Source: Gemmatirosa kalamazoonensis (GTDB taxonomy: Bacteria > Gemmatimonadota > Gemmatimonadetes > Gemmatimonadales > Gemmatimonadaceae). Taken from it: a stretch of DNA of 64,000 bases. A program made the position numbers and the translations under genes. The notes beneath the pieces are model-generated. The model did no database searches, had not been told where the DNA came from, and saw nothing but the letters and a program-made list of their open reading frames with translations. Positions 31,274 through 36,453 of this stretch are shown piece by piece (positions within the stretch are counted from its first letter, which is position 1; the number at the start of each line of letters is the position of its first letter). The DNA lies in NCBI RefSeq assembly GCF_000522985.1, contig NZ_CP007128.1:2774220-2838219 (forward strand). The letters run 5' to 3'.

Positions 31274-31357
31274 AGGGCAGGAGGGCAGGAGGGCAGGAGG
31301 GCAGGAGGCCTAACGGATCTCCTGCCCTCGCTTCGTGCCCTCCTGCCCTCCTGCCCT
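31274..31357. repeat. Imperfect hairpin of GGGCAGGA words overlapping a coding end
   Basis: The left arm (31274-31306) is four tandem GGGCAGGA-type units. The right arm (31319-31357) pairs with it but has an extra CGAAGCGAG-type insertion. The loop contains GCCTAAC (31308-31314), which supplies the TAG stop of the convergent aminotransferase gene. The right arm therefore encodes the last residues of that enzyme (GGQEGTKRGQEIR). Confidence 0.85.
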
Positions 31358-32536
31358 GATTCTCGTCACGGCCTCGCGAATCCGCTCCTCGCTCGTCGTG
31401 AACGCGAGCCGCAGCATGCCCTCGCCGCGCCGGCCGTAGGCGGCGCCCGGGATGCACGCCACGTCGTGCTCGCGCAGCAGGCGGTCGGCGAGCGCCACGC
31501 ACGTCTCGCCCGCGCGCAGCAGCCCGGCGACGTCGGCGAAGACGTAGAACGCGCCGTCCGGCGCCTCCGCGCGCACGCCGGCCACGCCGCGCAGCCCCGC
31601 GACGAGCGCGTCGCGGCGCGCGCGGAACAGCTCGCGCATGGCGATCGCGTCGTCCTGCGGCCCGGTGAGCGCGGCGAGCCCCGCGTGCTGCACGAACGCC
31701 GGCGCGCACGTCGTGCTCTCGTTCACGAGCGCGGTCACCGCCGGCACGAGCGACGACGGCATCACGCCGTAGCCGAGTCGCCAGCCGGTCATCGCGTACG
31801 TCTTCGAGAAGCCGTCGACGACGACCGTGCGCGCCGCCATGCCGGGAAGCGCGGCGACGCTCGACGCGGCGCGGTCGTCGTAGCGCAGCCCGTCGTAGAT
31901 CTCGTCGCTCACCACCCACAGGTCGCGCTCCTCGGCCAGCTCGGCGATCGCGAGTCGCTCGTGGTCGTCGAGCACGCACCCCGTCGGGTTCTGCGGCGTG
32001 TTCAGCACGAGCACGCGGGTGCGCTCGCGTACCGCCGCGCGGAGCGCGTCGACGTCGAGCCGGAACTGTGCGCCGTCGCGGGCGAGCGGATAGTGGCGCA
32101 CCCGCGCCCCGGCGATGCGCGCGGCCGCGGCGTAGCCGGGATAGCCGGGATCCGGGACGAGCACCTCGTCGCCGCGCTGCACGAGCGCGAGCAGCGCGTA
32201 CAGCAGCATCGGCTTCGCGCCGGACGTCACGACGACCTGCTCGGCCGTCGCGGCGACGCCGCGCGTGCGCTGCACGTCGGCGATCGCGGCACGCAGCGGG
32301 GGGATGCCGGCGGGCGCGACGTAGCGCGTGGCACCGGCGCGCAGCGCGGCCACGCCCGCCTCGACGATGTGCGCGGGCGTGGGAAGATCCGGCTCGCCGA
32401 TGTCGAGTCGCACGACGTCGTGCCCCTCGGCCGCGCGGCGCCGCGCCTCGGCGACCATGCGGGGGACGAGACCGTCGGTCGCCTCCGACGCGCTCCGCCG
32501 TCGCGTCACGTTAGGCCGGGGTCGCGTGCCCGTCAC
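31310..32536 (-). CDS. Class I/II aminotransferase, probably aromatic
   Basis: PLP-dependent fold-type I aminotransferase, 408 residues. Lys245 in DGFSKTYAMTGWRLGYG binds PLP; NTPQNPTG and SDEIYDGLRY are the other signatures. The GTG at 32536 overlaps the chorismate mutase stop (GTGA), which supports this start; a longer frame reads into shadow sequence. As the third gene after prephenate dehydratase and chorismate mutase it most likely converts phenylpyruvate to phenylalanine, although aspartate-type activity cannot be excluded. Its C-terminal tail GGQEGTKRGQEIR is encoded by the intergenic hairpin and looks acquired. Confidence 0.9.
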   Translation of the reverse strand: MTGTRPRPNVTRRRSASEATDGLVPRMVAEARRRAAEGHDVVRLDIGEPDLPTPAHIVEAGVAALRAGATRYVAPAGIPPLRAAIADVQRTRGVAATAEQVVVTSGAKPMLLYALLALVQRGDEVLVPDPGYPGYAAAARIAGARVRHYPLARDGAQFRLDVDALRAAVRERTRVLVLNTPQNPTGCVLDDHERLAIAELAEERDLWVVSDEIYDGLRYDDRAASSVAALPGMAARTVVVDGFSKTYAMTGWRLGYGVMPSSLVPAVTALVNESTTCAPAFVQHAGLAALTGPQDDAIAMRELFRARRDALVAGLRGVAGVRAEAPDGAFYVFADVAGLLRAGETCVALADRLLREHDVACIPGAAYGRRGEGMLRLAFTTSEERIREAVTRIRAGGQEGTKRGQEIR

Positions 32537-32934
32537 GCGTCCACCACCAGGTCGGGGCGGAGTGCGCGCGCCTCGCGCAGGTAGACGGGCCGCAGTCGGC
32601 GACCGTCCGCGACGGCGACGTGCAGCAGCACGCGCACGCATCGCGACAGGGGCTCCGTCACCTCCATCTCCGCCATGCACAGCATCGGTACGTCGGTCCA
32701 GCCGATCGCGCGCGCCGCCGCGGCGGGCGGCCGGCTGCGCAGGTCGCACGTCGTGGAGAAGATCGCGCTCACCACGTCGTCCGGCCCGAAGTCGTTCATC
32801 GACGTGAGCGCGTGCAGCAGCTCCGCCACCGCGTCGTCCACCGCTTCCGGCGCGTCGAAGGCGACGGTCGTCGCGCCGCGCACGCCGCGCATGCGCGGCA
32901 CGACGCGCGGCGCGTCCGTAAGCGAGGCGATCAT
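32533..32934 (-). CDS. aroH: Chorismate mutase, AroH class
   Basis: Trimeric, Bacillus-type chorismate mutase of 133 residues converting chorismate to prephenate. GVRGATTV, the later FSTTCDLRSRPPAAAARAIGW, CMAEMEV and RCVRVLLHV correspond closely to the AroH family, including active-site Arg and Glu/Cys positions. YLREARALRPDL matches the conserved C-terminus. The ATG at 32934 overlaps the prephenate dehydratase stop (ATGA), and its stop overlaps the aminotransferase start (GTGA). A separate small mutase rather than a fused P-protein is the notable arrangement. Confidence 0.93.
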   Translation of the reverse strand: MIASLTDAPRVVPRMRGVRGATTVAFDAPEAVDDAVAELLHALTSMNDFGPDDVVSAIFSTTCDLRSRPPAAAARAIGWTDVPMLCMAEMEVTEPLSRCVRVLLHVAVADGRRLRPVYLREARALRPDLVVDA

Positions 32935-33629
32935 GCGCGTCCTCCCTCGTGGCGGCGCAGCACGGCGAAGCGCGTCTCGTTGTCGGCGTGGTCCTGCACG
33001 GCGCTCGCGAGCACCACGAGCCCGTGACGCTGCGCCGCCGCCTCGCTCGCGATGACGGCGAGCGTCTCGGGCGCCGCCTGGGGCACGCTCGCGTACCACG
33101 GCGGGGTGAGCCCCTGCGGCGCGCCGCCCACGAGCGCCGCGAGCTCGCGCGCCGCGCCCGCCGTGTCGAACGCCTCGTACGCGGTGACGAGCGGGTGCTC
33201 GGCGAAGAACCGCGCGCACTGGCCGAGCGCCGCGTGATGGCTGCCGACCGCGCGCACCGAGGCGAGCGACGCGCCCGGGAGCGCGAGCACCGCGTGGTGC
33301 ACGGGGAGCGCCACCTCGTCGATGACCTCGACGCGCGTGCGGTTGTCGTACAGCAGCTCGTGCGCGCCGAGGATCGGCCCGATGGTCGAGTTCCACGTCG
33401 GGAGCACCGCGAGGTCCACCTGGCGCGCGAGCAGCAGCCCGATCACGCGCGGAAAGGTGGTCGCGCCGACGGCGACCGCGTGGCCCTCCCAGCGCTGGGC
33501 GATCGCGGCCTCGCCGAACGCGCCGGGCTCGCCCTGATACGCGACGCGCGGGCCGAGCGCGGCGCCGACTGCGCGGAGCGGTCCGGGCGTGTCCATGCGT
33601 TGGAGGGGTGAAGTCCATGCGGCGATCAT
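32931..33629 (-). CDS. pheA: Prephenate dehydratase
   Basis: Converts prephenate to phenylpyruvate; 232 residues. RVAYQGEPGAFGEAAI at the start, LAVLPTWNSTIGPI (family VPIENS-like site), and the later AVQDHADNETRFAVL (N-x-T-R-F motif) are typical. There is no ACT domain, so allosteric feedback by Phe may be absent and control left to the leader region. The ATG at 33629 is chosen for its GGGAGGT ribosome-binding site; an ATG at 33596 lacks one. It is the first enzyme gene of a three-gene Phe operon with ATGA/GTGA overlaps. Confidence 0.9.
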   Translation of the reverse strand: MIAAWTSPLQRMDTPGPLRAVGAALGPRVAYQGEPGAFGEAAIAQRWEGHAVAVGATTFPRVIGLLLARQVDLAVLPTWNSTIGPILGAHELLYDNRTRVEVIDEVALPVHHAVLALPGASLASVRAVGSHHAALGQCARFFAEHPLVTAYEAFDTAGAARELAALVGGAPQGLTPPWYASVPQAAPETLAVIASEAAAQRHGLVVLASAVQDHADNETRFAVLRRHEGGRA

Positions 33630-33655
33630 GCCTACCTCCCGGCACAAGCGGAACG

Positions 33656-33685
33656 AAAAAGGCCCCCGGTGTGAGCCGGGAGCCT
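33656..33685 (-). terminator. Rho-independent terminator in the pheA leader (attenuator)
   Basis: On the minus strand a 10-bp stem (AGGCTCCCGG with CCGGGGGCCT, one G-T pair, loop CTCACA) is followed by TTTTT-type U-run, the only clear stem plus T-run terminator I saw. It lies 27 bases before the pheA start, so transcription would stop before the enzymes unless it is prevented from folding. Its 5' arm GCTCCCGG is complementary to an upstream leader segment at 33739-33746. Confidence 0.85.
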
Positions 33686-33711
33686 GGGGCGGAGCGCGTC
33701 GTGCGATCGAT

Positions 33712-33807
33712 CTATCGCGACGTACGCCAGCGCCTGCAGCTCCCGGAGCGAATCCGGAGGCTGGTAAACGTAAAGACGCTAAAGCTGGCGGCGCGGTAGC
33801 TCGTCAT
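33712..33807 (-). CDS. pheL: Phe-codon leader peptide of the pheA operon
   Basis: A 31-codon open frame (MTSYRAASFSVFTFTSLRIR...) between the upstream gene and the attenuator terminator. It reads Phe at residues 9, 12 and 14, all as TTT, in a genome that nearly always uses TTC. Directly after the Phe codons lies a segment (33754-33763) able to pair with 33737-33746, which in turn can pair with the terminator's 5' arm. This is the layout of ribosome-mediated attenuation: stalling at Phe codons frees the middle segment and blocks the terminator. No good ribosome-binding site is visible; the message may be nearly leaderless. Confidence 0.8.
   Translation of the reverse strand: MTSYRAASFSVFTFTSLRIRSGSCRRWRTSR
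33737..33763 (-). promoter_or_regulatory. Antiterminator segments 1 and 2 of the pheA attenuator
   Basis: Segment 1 (33754-33763, CAGCCTCCGG on the minus strand) begins one codon after the third Phe codon. Segment 2 (33737-33746) contains CCGGGAGC, which pairs either with segment 1 (imperfectly) or exactly over eight bases with GCTCCCGG in the terminator. The two pairings exclude each other. Confidence 0.7.
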
Positions 33808-33854
33808 GGTTGCCCATGATTGCACCGCCGAGGCTGGAGCGCAAGTGCGCCGCG

Positions 33855-35750
33855 TCACAGCGGCACGCCCTCCGCCGAACCGACCATCGCCTCCGGGTTC
33901 AGCACGCGGTCGAGCGCCTCGCGCGTGAGCAGCCCACGCTCCAGCACGAGATCGTACACACCTCGTCCGGACTCCAGCGCACTGCGCGCGATGTCGGTCG
34001 CCGTCTCGTAGCCGAGCACCGGCACGAGCGCGGTGACGATCCCGATCGAGTGCTCGACGAAGTACCGCATCCGGTCGGCGTTCGCCGTGATCCCCTCGAT
34101 GCACCGCTCGCGCAGCACCACGCACGCGTTGCGCAGCTCGGCCAGGCTGCCTAACAGCCGGTACGCGATCACCGGCTCGAACACGTTGAGCTGAAGCTGC
34201 CCGGCCTCCGCCGCGAGCGTGACCGCGACGTCGCCGCCGATGACGTCGAAGCACACCTGGTTCACGACCTCGGGGATCACCGGGTTCACCTTGCCCGGCA
34301 TGATCGAGCTCCCCGGCTGCATGGCCGGGAGATTGATCTCACCGAGGCCGGCGCGCGGCCCCGACGCGAGCAGACGCAGATCGTTGCAGATCTTCGAGAG
34401 CTTCACCGCGCAGCGCTTCATCACGCCCGAGAGCTGCACGAACACGCCGGTGTCCGCCGTCGCCTCGACGAGGTCGGGGGCGGTGATCAGCTCGCGGCCG
34501 AACACACGCGAGAGATGCGCGCGCACCGCCTCGGTGTATCCCTGCGGCGCGTTGATGCGCGTGCCGATCGCGGTCGCGCCCATGTTGATCTCGCGGATCA
34601 GCCCCTGCACCTCGCCGAGCCGGTCGACGTCCTCGAGGATCGTGTGGCCGAACGCGGTGAACTCCTGGCCGAGCGTCATCGGCACCGCGTCCTGCAGCTG
34701 GGTGCGCCCCATCTTCAGCAGCGGCGCGAACTCGCGCCCCTTCGTCAGGAACGCCTGCGCGAGGTCGCGCATCGCCTCGCGCAGCCGGTCGATGCTCGCG
34801 TGCAGGGCGAGCTTCACCGCCGTCGGGTAGACGTCGTTCGTCGACTGGCTGAGGTTCACGTGGTTGTTCGGGTGCACCACGTCGTACTCGCCGCGGCGGC
34901 GCCCGAGCAGCTCCAGCGCGCGGTTCGCGATCACCTCGTTCGCGTTCATGTTCGTCGAGGTGCCCGCGCCACCCTGGATCATGTCGACGAGGAAGTGCTC
35001 GTGGTGCCGCCCCTCGGCCACCTCGCGCGCCGCCGCGACGATCGCGTCGGCGACCTCGGTGCCTAACAGGCCGAGGTCGCGGTTGGCGAGCGCCGCGGAC
35101 TCCTTCACCATGGCGAGCGCGCAGACGAGCTCGGGGAACTCGCGCAGCGCGACGCCGGTGATGGGGAAGTTCTCCAGCGCGCGCAACGTCTGCACGCCGT
35201 ACATCGCGGCCTCGGGCACCTCGCGCTCGCCGAGCAGGTCGTGCTCGCGTCGCATGCCGCCGCCGGAGAACGCCATCACGCGTCCGTGGCCGACGAGCGT
35301 CGCCGACGCGACGCGCAGCCGCTGGGCGATGGTGCGCGCCGACCGCTGGACGAGCGCGGCGTAGAGCTGCGGCGCCTCCTTCACGAGTGACTCGAGCGCC
35401 TCGTGCGTGAGGATGAGCGCCTCGACGTCGCCGATGGCGCGCGCGGTGGTGCCGTGCTTCGCCGTGTCGCCGAGCAGCAGCCCCTCGCCGACCGCCTCGC
35501 CGGCCCCGAGCGTGCCCAGTCGCGCCGTGTGCCCCTCGGCCGACTTCTCGATCGCCACCGCGCCGGAGACGACGATCGCGAACAGCTCGCGCGGCCGTCC
35601 TTCCTGGAACAGCGTCTCGTCGGCGGCGAAGTGCCGCGGGACCATGGCGCGCGACAGCCGCCAGAAGTACGAGTCGGGGAACCCCTGCAGGAACGCCGTG
35701 GCCCGCAGCTGCTCGGCGACGGAGGATGGGGAGAGAGTCGTCTCGGTCAT
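33855..35750 (-). CDS. aspA: Aspartate ammonia-lyase with N-terminal cyclic-nucleotide-binding domain
   Basis: A 631-residue fusion. Residues about 12-145 form a CRP-like cNMP-binding domain (LGAGEAVGEGLLLGDTAK); the phosphate-binding Arg-Ser of CRP aligns with His-Gly here, so classic cAMP binding is doubtful. Residues about 165-625 are a full aspartase/fumarase-superfamily enzyme: IQGGAGTSTNMNANEV, HPNNHVNLSQSTNDVYP and GSSIMPGKVNP with the catalytic Ser loop. The wording matches aspartase better than class II fumarase. Likely reaction: aspartate to fumarate plus ammonia. The ATG at 35750 starts the regulatory domain. It is divergent from the Uma2 gene; the Phe leader follows downstream. 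Confidence 0.9.
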   Translation of the reverse strand: MTETTLSPSSVAEQLRATAFLQGFPDSYFWRLSRAMVPRHFAADETLFQEGRPRELFAIVVSGAVAIEKSAEGHTARLGTLGAGEAVGEGLLLGDTAKHGTTARAIGDVEALILTHEALESLVKEAPQLYAALVQRSARTIAQRLRVASATLVGHGRVMAFSGGGMRREHDLLGEREVPEAAMYGVQTLRALENFPITGVALREFPELVCALAMVKESAALANRDLGLLGTEVADAIVAAAREVAEGRHHEHFLVDMIQGGAGTSTNMNANEVIANRALELLGRRRGEYDVVHPNNHVNLSQSTNDVYPTAVKLALHASIDRLREAMRDLAQAFLTKGREFAPLLKMGRTQLQDAVPMTLGQEFTAFGHTILEDVDRLGEVQGLIREINMGATAIGTRINAPQGYTEAVRAHLSRVFGRELITAPDLVEATADTGVFVQLSGVMKRCAVKLSKICNDLRLLASGPRAGLGEINLPAMQPGSSIMPGKVNPVIPEVVNQVCFDVIGGDVAVTLAAEAGQLQLNVFEPVIAYRLLGSLAELRNACVVLRERCIEGITANADRMRYFVEHSIGIVTALVPVLGYETATDIARSALESGRGVYDLVLERGLLTREALDRVLNPEAMVGSAEGVPL

Positions 35751-35841
35751 GCGGTCGAAGCTAGCGGACGCCCGTGCGCGGGGTAGGGGAGCGGATGCCG
35801 CGTGCTTTCCGCCGGGTGCGCCCGGGCATATACTCGGCCGC

Positions 35842-36453
35842 ATGAGCGAACCCGCCGGCGGACCGCGCTTCCTGACGGTCGACGAGTACCGCGCGCTCGA
35901 GGCGACGTCGGAGCTGCGACACGAGTACGTGCGCGGTGCCGTGCGGGCGATGACCGGCGCGTCGCGGCGTCACATCCGGATCGTGCTCAATATCGCCCGC
36001 CGTCTCATGGACGCCGCCGGCAGCGGGTGCCGCGTCTACGTGAACGACCTTCGTGTGCGCGTCGACGAGGACGTCTTCTACTATCCGGACGTCGTCGTGT
36101 CATGCGAGGAGCCCGACGACGGTCACGAGGAGGCCGCGCCCGGTTTCGTCGTCGAGGTGCTGTCGCCGTCCACGGAAGCGACCGACCGACACGAGAAGGC
36201 GGTCTACTACGCGCGCAAGCCCGGTCTGCAATCGTTCCTCCTTGTACACCAGCACGACCGTCGCGTGGAGCGGCACCACCGGGACGACGACGGCACGTGG
36301 CGGAGAGACGACGTCACCGGCAGCGGCGACGTCACGGTGCCGTGTCCGGCGACGAGTCTCACGCTCGACGAGATCTACGCCGGCGTCGAGCGCGAGGGCG
36401 GCGAGCCGTGGCCGCGGCCGCGTCGCGTGCGCGAACCGGAGCCGCAGCTCTGA
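35842..36453 (+). CDS. Uma2-family PD-(D/E)xK protein (DUF820)
   Basis: A 203-residue protein of the Uma2 restriction-endonuclease-like fold. MSEPAGGPRFLTVDEYRALE and the segment ELRHEYVRGAVRAMTGAS are the usual N-terminus; YYPDVVVSC and FVVEVLSPSTEATDR supply the predicted Asp and Glu metal ligands, and KAVYYARKPGLQSFLLV follows. Members are abundant in cyanobacteria and a few other phyla; their biological role is unproven, with mobile or defence links proposed. It is 91 bases from the divergent aspartase gene; its start is the ATG at 35842. Confidence 0.9.
   Translation: MSEPAGGPRFLTVDEYRALEATSELRHEYVRGAVRAMTGASRRHIRIVLNIARRLMDAAGSGCRVYVNDLRVRVDEDVFYYPDVVVSCEEPDDGHEEAAPGFVVEVLSPSTEATDRHEKAVYYARKPGLQSFLLVHQHDRRVERHHRDDDGTWRRDDVTGSGDVTVPCPATSLTLDEIYAGVEREGGEPWPRPRRVREPEPQL

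Follow-up and report, generated by a model that had tools for sequence, protein, structure and literature searches.

In the pheL-pheA system of Escherichia coli, a Phe-rich leader peptide is followed by segments 1 to 4 with a terminator just before pheA, and Phe is the signal. The pheA locus of the soil bacterium Gemmatirosa kalamazoonensis described here, part of a window (the whole stretch of DNA analysed) of 64 kb, has the same arrangement, with Phe as the predicted signal. Unlike pheL, its leader is unmatched by the Rfam Phe_leader model, has no Shine-Dalgarno (SD) sequence and is probably leaderless, and its segment 2 lies wholly within the open reading frame (ORF), with the stop codon about 20–22 nt beyond. 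It also differs from the E. coli system in that PheA is a monofunctional dehydratase without an ACT domain. The Phe_leader model (RF01859, gathering score 55 bits) scored E. coli pheL, used as a control, at 132.3 bits, and gave no match in three leader loci (L001, L007 and L059) even at E 10.

Mycobacteria reportedly possess a leaderless short ORF with clustered codons for the sensed residue that controls an operon, going by the title of the 2020 study by Canestrari. By that title, the mycobacterial poly-Cys attenuators resemble our probably leaderless locus in layout and in their clustered codons, with Cys instead of Phe. Leaderless poly-Cys ORFs of mycobacteria are cited in PMC13236596. In S. 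meliloti the trpL leader transcript begins at the leader ORF ATG, making it leaderless (PMC7298713), as is predicted here for the window leader; the two differ in the residue (Trp, not Phe) and in phylum. Outside Proteobacteria, classical attenuators have also been predicted by comparison, as here, for the trp, ilv, leu and cys operons of Actinobacteria, in a study whose abstract covers neither phe operons nor Gemmatimonadota (PMC1262725). No report of attenuators in Gemmatimonadota was found in the open-access literature searched, in agreement with a first-pass annotation of the window that knew of none. As far as checked, the mechanism is of a known kind (classical attenuation), while the lineage, scale and leaderless layout are new.

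Judging from sequence, we consider it highly probable (roughly 0.9) that a ribosome-mediated transcription attenuator lies upstream of pheA, sensing charged tRNA-Phe and governing a pheA-aroH-aminotransferase operon. The sequence features of this class (a Phe-rich ORF, a terminator before the first gene, and an antiterminator pairing that excludes the terminator) are all present at the locus.

Control region and operon

The leader ORF, MTSYRAASFSVFTFTSLRIRSGSCRRWRTSR followed by a stop codon (33807-33712), lies between aspA (end 33855) and pheA (ATG at 33629), and the remaining parts of the control region are given in Table 1. Phe is encoded by TTT at codons 9, 12 and 14, and this is the sole short ORF on either strand of the 64-kb window (71.6% GC) with at least three Phe per six codons and at least two TTT, confirming as unique within the window the cluster of three TTT codons in six residues that the first-pass annotation had picked out. 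The annotation had also set these codons against the TTC of local genes. The usage is as claimed (TTT/TTC counts of 1/5 in pheA, 0/20 in aspA and 0/7 in the aminotransferase gene), but the contrast is weak as evidence because TTT and TTC are freely mixed in relatives. A second ATG (in GCAATCATGGGC) was rejected as the leader start: it opens a 12-codon ORF without Phe, overlaps the proposed -10 element and would be untranscribed.

Table 1. Features of the pheA control region and operon (window positions).
Feature	Position	Strand	Basis or remark
Whole control region	33844-33630	-	Weak promoter-like site, ORF, segment 2, terminator, pheA SD
Candidate -35, TTGCGC	33839..33844	-	Best promoter-like site in upstream 150 nt
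Candidate -10, AATCAT with TG extension	33816..33821	-	17 nt from -35; end 8 nt before leader ATG
Leader peptide ORF, 31 codons, no SD, probably leaderless	33712..33807	-	Relatives' leaders similarly placed
Phe control codons, TTT-AGC-GTC-TTT-ACG-TTT (codons 9-14)	33766..33783	-	Phe clusters here in relatives too
Segment 1:2 hairpin, CCGGATTCGCTCCGG	33743..33757	-	Directly after last Phe codon; seen in 166-nt fold
Segment 2, CCGGGAGC, antiterminator 5' half, within ORF	33739..33746	-	Exact complement of 33683-33676
Segment 3, AGGCTCCCGG, terminator 5' arm	33676..33685	-	Terminator detection; complementarity to segment 2
Segment 4, CCGGGGGCCT, terminator 3' arm, then T-run to 33656	33660..33669	-	Terminator detection
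pheA SD region, GGGAGGTAGGC	33630..33640	-	Read from sequence
pheA, prephenate dehydratase, catalytic domain only	32931..33629	-	PF00800 only, no ACT domain
aroH, chorismate mutase type I	32533..32934	-	PF07736, 132 bits; 4-nt overlap with pheA
Class I/II aminotransferase, GTG 32536 likely start	31310..32536	-	PF00155

The terminator (AGGCTCCCGG-CTCACA-CCGGGGGCCT and T-run, 33685-33656) comprises 10 pairs and was recovered as two overlapping matches, against 0.0 ± 0.2 in shuffles. Segment 2 (33746-33739) is the exact 8-nt complement of GCTCCCGG (33683-33676) in the terminator 5' arm, with a duplex of -18.3 kcal/mol that is stronger than ~99% of dinucleotide shuffles of the same region (p about 0.01). 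Both the 10-bp stem with its T-run just before pheA and the exact eight-base alternative pairing had been proposed in the first pass, along with pairing between the segment after the Phe codons and a middle segment; all three were borne out, the last as a 1:2 stem of only 5 bp. Domain matches likewise upheld the order of the three downstream genes, and the SD of pheA is good (GGGAGGT).

When leaders were folded with a ribosome occupying the final Phe codon and without the as yet unmade terminator 3' arm, the antiterminator (5' arm with segment 2) formed in 5/5 cases. At equilibrium, the isolated window leader preferred the 2:3 pairing together with a 1:4 pairing, whereas a slightly longer stretch (166 nt) favoured the terminator. 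Because these two folds disagree, the balance between states would depend on timing, and equilibrium folds alone cannot settle the outcome; the modelled energies of the two states are close, as a switch needs.

From these parts we infer a sequence of start, stalling and read-through that responds to Phe. Transcription would begin on or just beside the first codon of the leader, as the promoter position suggests, and a ribosome would load on the leaderless 5' end. With ample Phe, it would pass the three Phe codons and segment 2 towards the stop about 20–22 nt on, with segment 2 either covered or locked in the 1:2 hairpin; the 3:4 terminator would then form and transcription would end before pheA. 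When Phe is scarce, the ribosome would stall at the Phe codons and mask segment 1, and the freed segment 2 would pair with segment 3 as it emerges, in which case no terminator would form and the operon would be transcribed.

The pheA gene is the sole match of its kind in this genome (7.48 Mb on four contigs, including a 5.31 Mb chromosome). A crude motif test found the ACT motif absent from 86/134 (about 64%) of the Gemmatimonadota prephenate dehydratases scored, and the leaders may explain how dehydratases without an ACT domain are controlled. By the same crude motif, ACT was absent from 17/21 genes with a leader versus 69/113 genes without one directly upstream, and a link between leader presence and ACT loss, not being clear from these counts, was set aside. 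In genus g35, dehydratase and AroH form a fusion protein instead. The upstream neighbour, aspA (33855-35843, minus strand), encodes a protein of the aspartate ammonia-lyase/fumarase type whose fusion to an N-terminal cyclic-nucleotide-binding domain (PF00027) is unusual.

Phe-rich leaders before pheA in other Gemmatimonadota

We searched for pheA in 179 genomes from the family and 150 from the phylum, many of the relatives being metagenome assemblies, and retrieved the loci. Leaders were located via pheA because searching close relatives for DNA similar to the window leader yielded chance-level matches only. Overall, 20 intact Phe-rich pheA leaders were found (including that of the window), in families f1 (genera g1, g28 and g35), f2, f4 and f5; their peptides are unrelated and the order of their parts is common to all, albeit with loci sampled by similarity to one PheA, such that frequencies are not unbiased. 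The Phe-rich frame, terminator and alternative pairing, which the first-pass annotation had suggested comparing among related genomes, recur in several families, and this recurrence argues for its reading of the locus as a Phe attenuator.

In another member of the Gemmatimonadaceae (LS_FP_2_bin.53, G115; locus L007), the leader MPARPFSTSFFFLAVSESGSCLARAHLAK ends in a stop codon and is followed by a terminator. The string TCCGGGAGCTG at segment 2 is identical in this leader and that of the window, and an exact 8-nt complement is again present in the 5' arm, while the stem at the 1:2 place has 11 bp and is stronger than that of the window. Leader types differ among the other lineages, being MTNFSFSATYYFCFFGYNRWGPRSRVQ in genus g35 and MVRNSSWFFYFSSAGAAVSPSGVGSVL in family f2 (each then a stop codon), with others in families f4 and f5. 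The frame of one g35 leader (L062, G177) is shifted within the Phe/Tyr region, with promoter and terminator kept, reflecting either decay or an assembly error.

Among 137 unique pheA upstream regions surveyed automatically, a Phe cluster in a short ORF preceded the terminator at 13 of the 22 loci with any terminator, where terminator counts are lower bounds as the detector misses interrupted T-runs. Phe was the residue most often clustered before pheA terminators, and the antisense control gave 0 for Phe. Complementarity between segments 2 and 3 was significant over 11 non-redundant pheA leaders (combined p = 8e-8), with modest individual values (0.01 for the window; some relatives not significant). 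Most pheA upstream regions in the phylum have no leader directly in front, partly because pheA lies inside an operon.

Probable leaderless start and position of the stop codon

In 17/18 pheA leaders, the top-scoring promoter-like site of the upstream 150 nt has a -10 element ending 6–9 nt ahead of the leader start (3.6% in the shuffled null). Start codons in this test were partly picked by eye; a fairer test, which used all in-frame starts of 48 Phe, His and Leu leaders, placed +1 on or adjacent to such a start codon in 38/48, versus 3.8 expected. The exception among the 18, L068, carries TTTACT-17-TAAGCT in the customary position too, but its score was matched or exceeded by that of a chance site. 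A nineteenth leader (L184), outside the 18-leader scan since the locus ends there, reads TTGACA-18-TAGCCT-6 nt-ATG. The promoter-like site of the window (TTGCGC-17-AATCAT-8 nt-ATG) is among the weakest of the set and, at 8 of 12 matches, goes unreported by a strict consensus scan; the same -35 hexamer and 17-nt spacing occur in L007. Transcription of the window leader would accordingly be expected to begin no more than about 3 nt from its start codon, and by the criteria of promoter position and missing SD it is probably a leaderless mRNA.

No SD was present in any pheA leader checked, which is explained if the likely transcription start coincides with, or adjoins, the first codon of the leader ORF. 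The first-pass annotation was correct that the window peptide has no clear ribosome-binding site and that its stop lies beyond segment 2, and it regarded both as unusual; against its relatives the leader is ordinary in each, given that the probable leaderless layout is shared and the stop is so placed in every pheA leader measured. In all of these, segment 2 starts 5–18 nt after the last Phe codon, within the ORF, and ends 6–30 nt (mostly 15–30) short of the stop codon; a further 19–32 nt separate that stop from the start of the terminator arm. With segment 2 inside the ORF, this geometry implies that a translating ribosome would cover segment 2 directly. In long genes from the same DNA, a TANNNT peak smaller than that of the leaders lies 6 nt before in-frame starts (14 versus about 3–4), so leaderless genes are probably more widespread in the phylum.

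Leaders at other amino-acid operons and competing explanations

Similar leaders precede operons of other pathways. Poly-His leaders with terminators were found before hisG at 22/30 sampled Gemmatimonadota loci (L265-L288), including in this genome, where the leader MSIVRAHHHHHVHHRHGPAGRGDARARG (L283, G000 C2:1443003-1443563, minus) has a segment 2:3 p of 0.003; over 19 his leaders the combined p for this pairing was 1e-4, with most single leaders not significant. This genome also carries a Leu-rich leader, MQRHAVLLLTSALGRLIGRGLSCLGGRSE, before leuA (L312, G000 C3:255497-256987, minus), one of seven loci at which Leu/Ile/Val-rich leader ORFs and terminators precede leuA or ilvB (L312, L301, L304, L307, L308, L314 and L333). 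Matches to miRNA families of Rfam in L312, and other weak matches, were taken as chance, those of L312 stemming from a long inverted repeat. In several genomes where pheA belongs to an aro-pheA operon, Phe/Tyr/Trp-rich leaders with a terminator lie about 0.9–1.5 kb upstream of pheA (L006, L011, L016, L020, L028, L051, L079, L149 and L174), as with MSNRAAATSYYYFSYWTLSGSYRRARTK in L006, where the closest PheA is encoded. The aro gene preceding pheA in L006, L009 and L012 is, by eye, a DAHP synthase, and the mixed leaders are possible multi-aromatic sensors. The control residue tracks the pathway, with Phe used before pheA, His before hisG, Leu before leuA and Phe/Tyr/Trp before aro-pheA operons.

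No argument against chance is stronger than this agreement between residue and pathway; accidental Phe codons were considered and discarded. The agreement bears equally on whether another sensor (a T-box, protein-binding or riboswitch-type leader) governs the terminator, with the Phe codons incidental. T-boxes or proteins often control terminators before amino-acid genes in other phyla, yet an independent sensor is hard to reconcile with a residue that changes with the pathway; moreover, no Rfam family, T-box included, reached its gathering score in the window, and amino-acid leader and T-box families were absent from 17 leader loci at relaxed cut-offs. We regard such a sensor as most improbable. 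Marginally less remote, and still very unlikely, is that the hairpin is a mere terminator of aspA and the small ORF accidental: aspA, which lies on the same strand, ends at 33855, and a terminator would be expected somewhere between the genes, but the stem stands about 170 nt beyond the aspA stop, just before pheA, and in relatives the Phe-rich ORF, complementary segment and terminator recur before pheA with no need of aspA. The ORF might instead encode a short peptide acting in trans, with attenuation secondary, following the proposal for S. meliloti peTrpL, an attenuator peptide that is leaderless and has a role in trans (PMC7298713). Beyond the Phe cluster and the codons of segment 2, the peptide sequence shows no conservation among genera, which speaks against a conserved peptide function and makes this reading about as improbable as that of a separate sensor.

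Ribosome-mediated attenuation at these loci would extend a textbook mechanism, systematically at phe, his, leu and aro operons, to a phylum for which no earlier report was found. We think it fairly likely that leaderless attenuators form a network throughout the Gemmatimonadota (at phe, his, leu/ilv and multi-aromatic aro operons, perhaps also trp), with ribosome loading at a 5'-terminal start codon and translation of the antiterminator segment. If true, control of amino acid synthesis would be coupled to leaderless initiation, in a distinct layout that replaces the SD-dependent leader of Proteobacteria. The layout predicts an mRNA 5' end at the start codon and no SD step, and the set of leaders is suited to asking how ribosomes on leaderless RNAs keep up with RNA polymerase. 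The leaders also predict gene regulation in organisms that are hard to grow.

Leaders rich in Trp were sought before trpE, and were suggestive in genus g32 only, where short ORFs upstream of trpE in L115 and L117 read MLHTVETWRPETAGDSWRCWRR and MFRTFASWRRNTGDAWRPWR, with no terminator detected. Beyond the phylum, Phe/Tyr-rich short ORFs followed by terminators were observed a few hundred bases upstream of pheA in four Acidobacteriota records (L206, L235, L237 and L251), and likewise upstream of pheA in L199, L211 and L213 (Thermoflexus/Chloroflexota).
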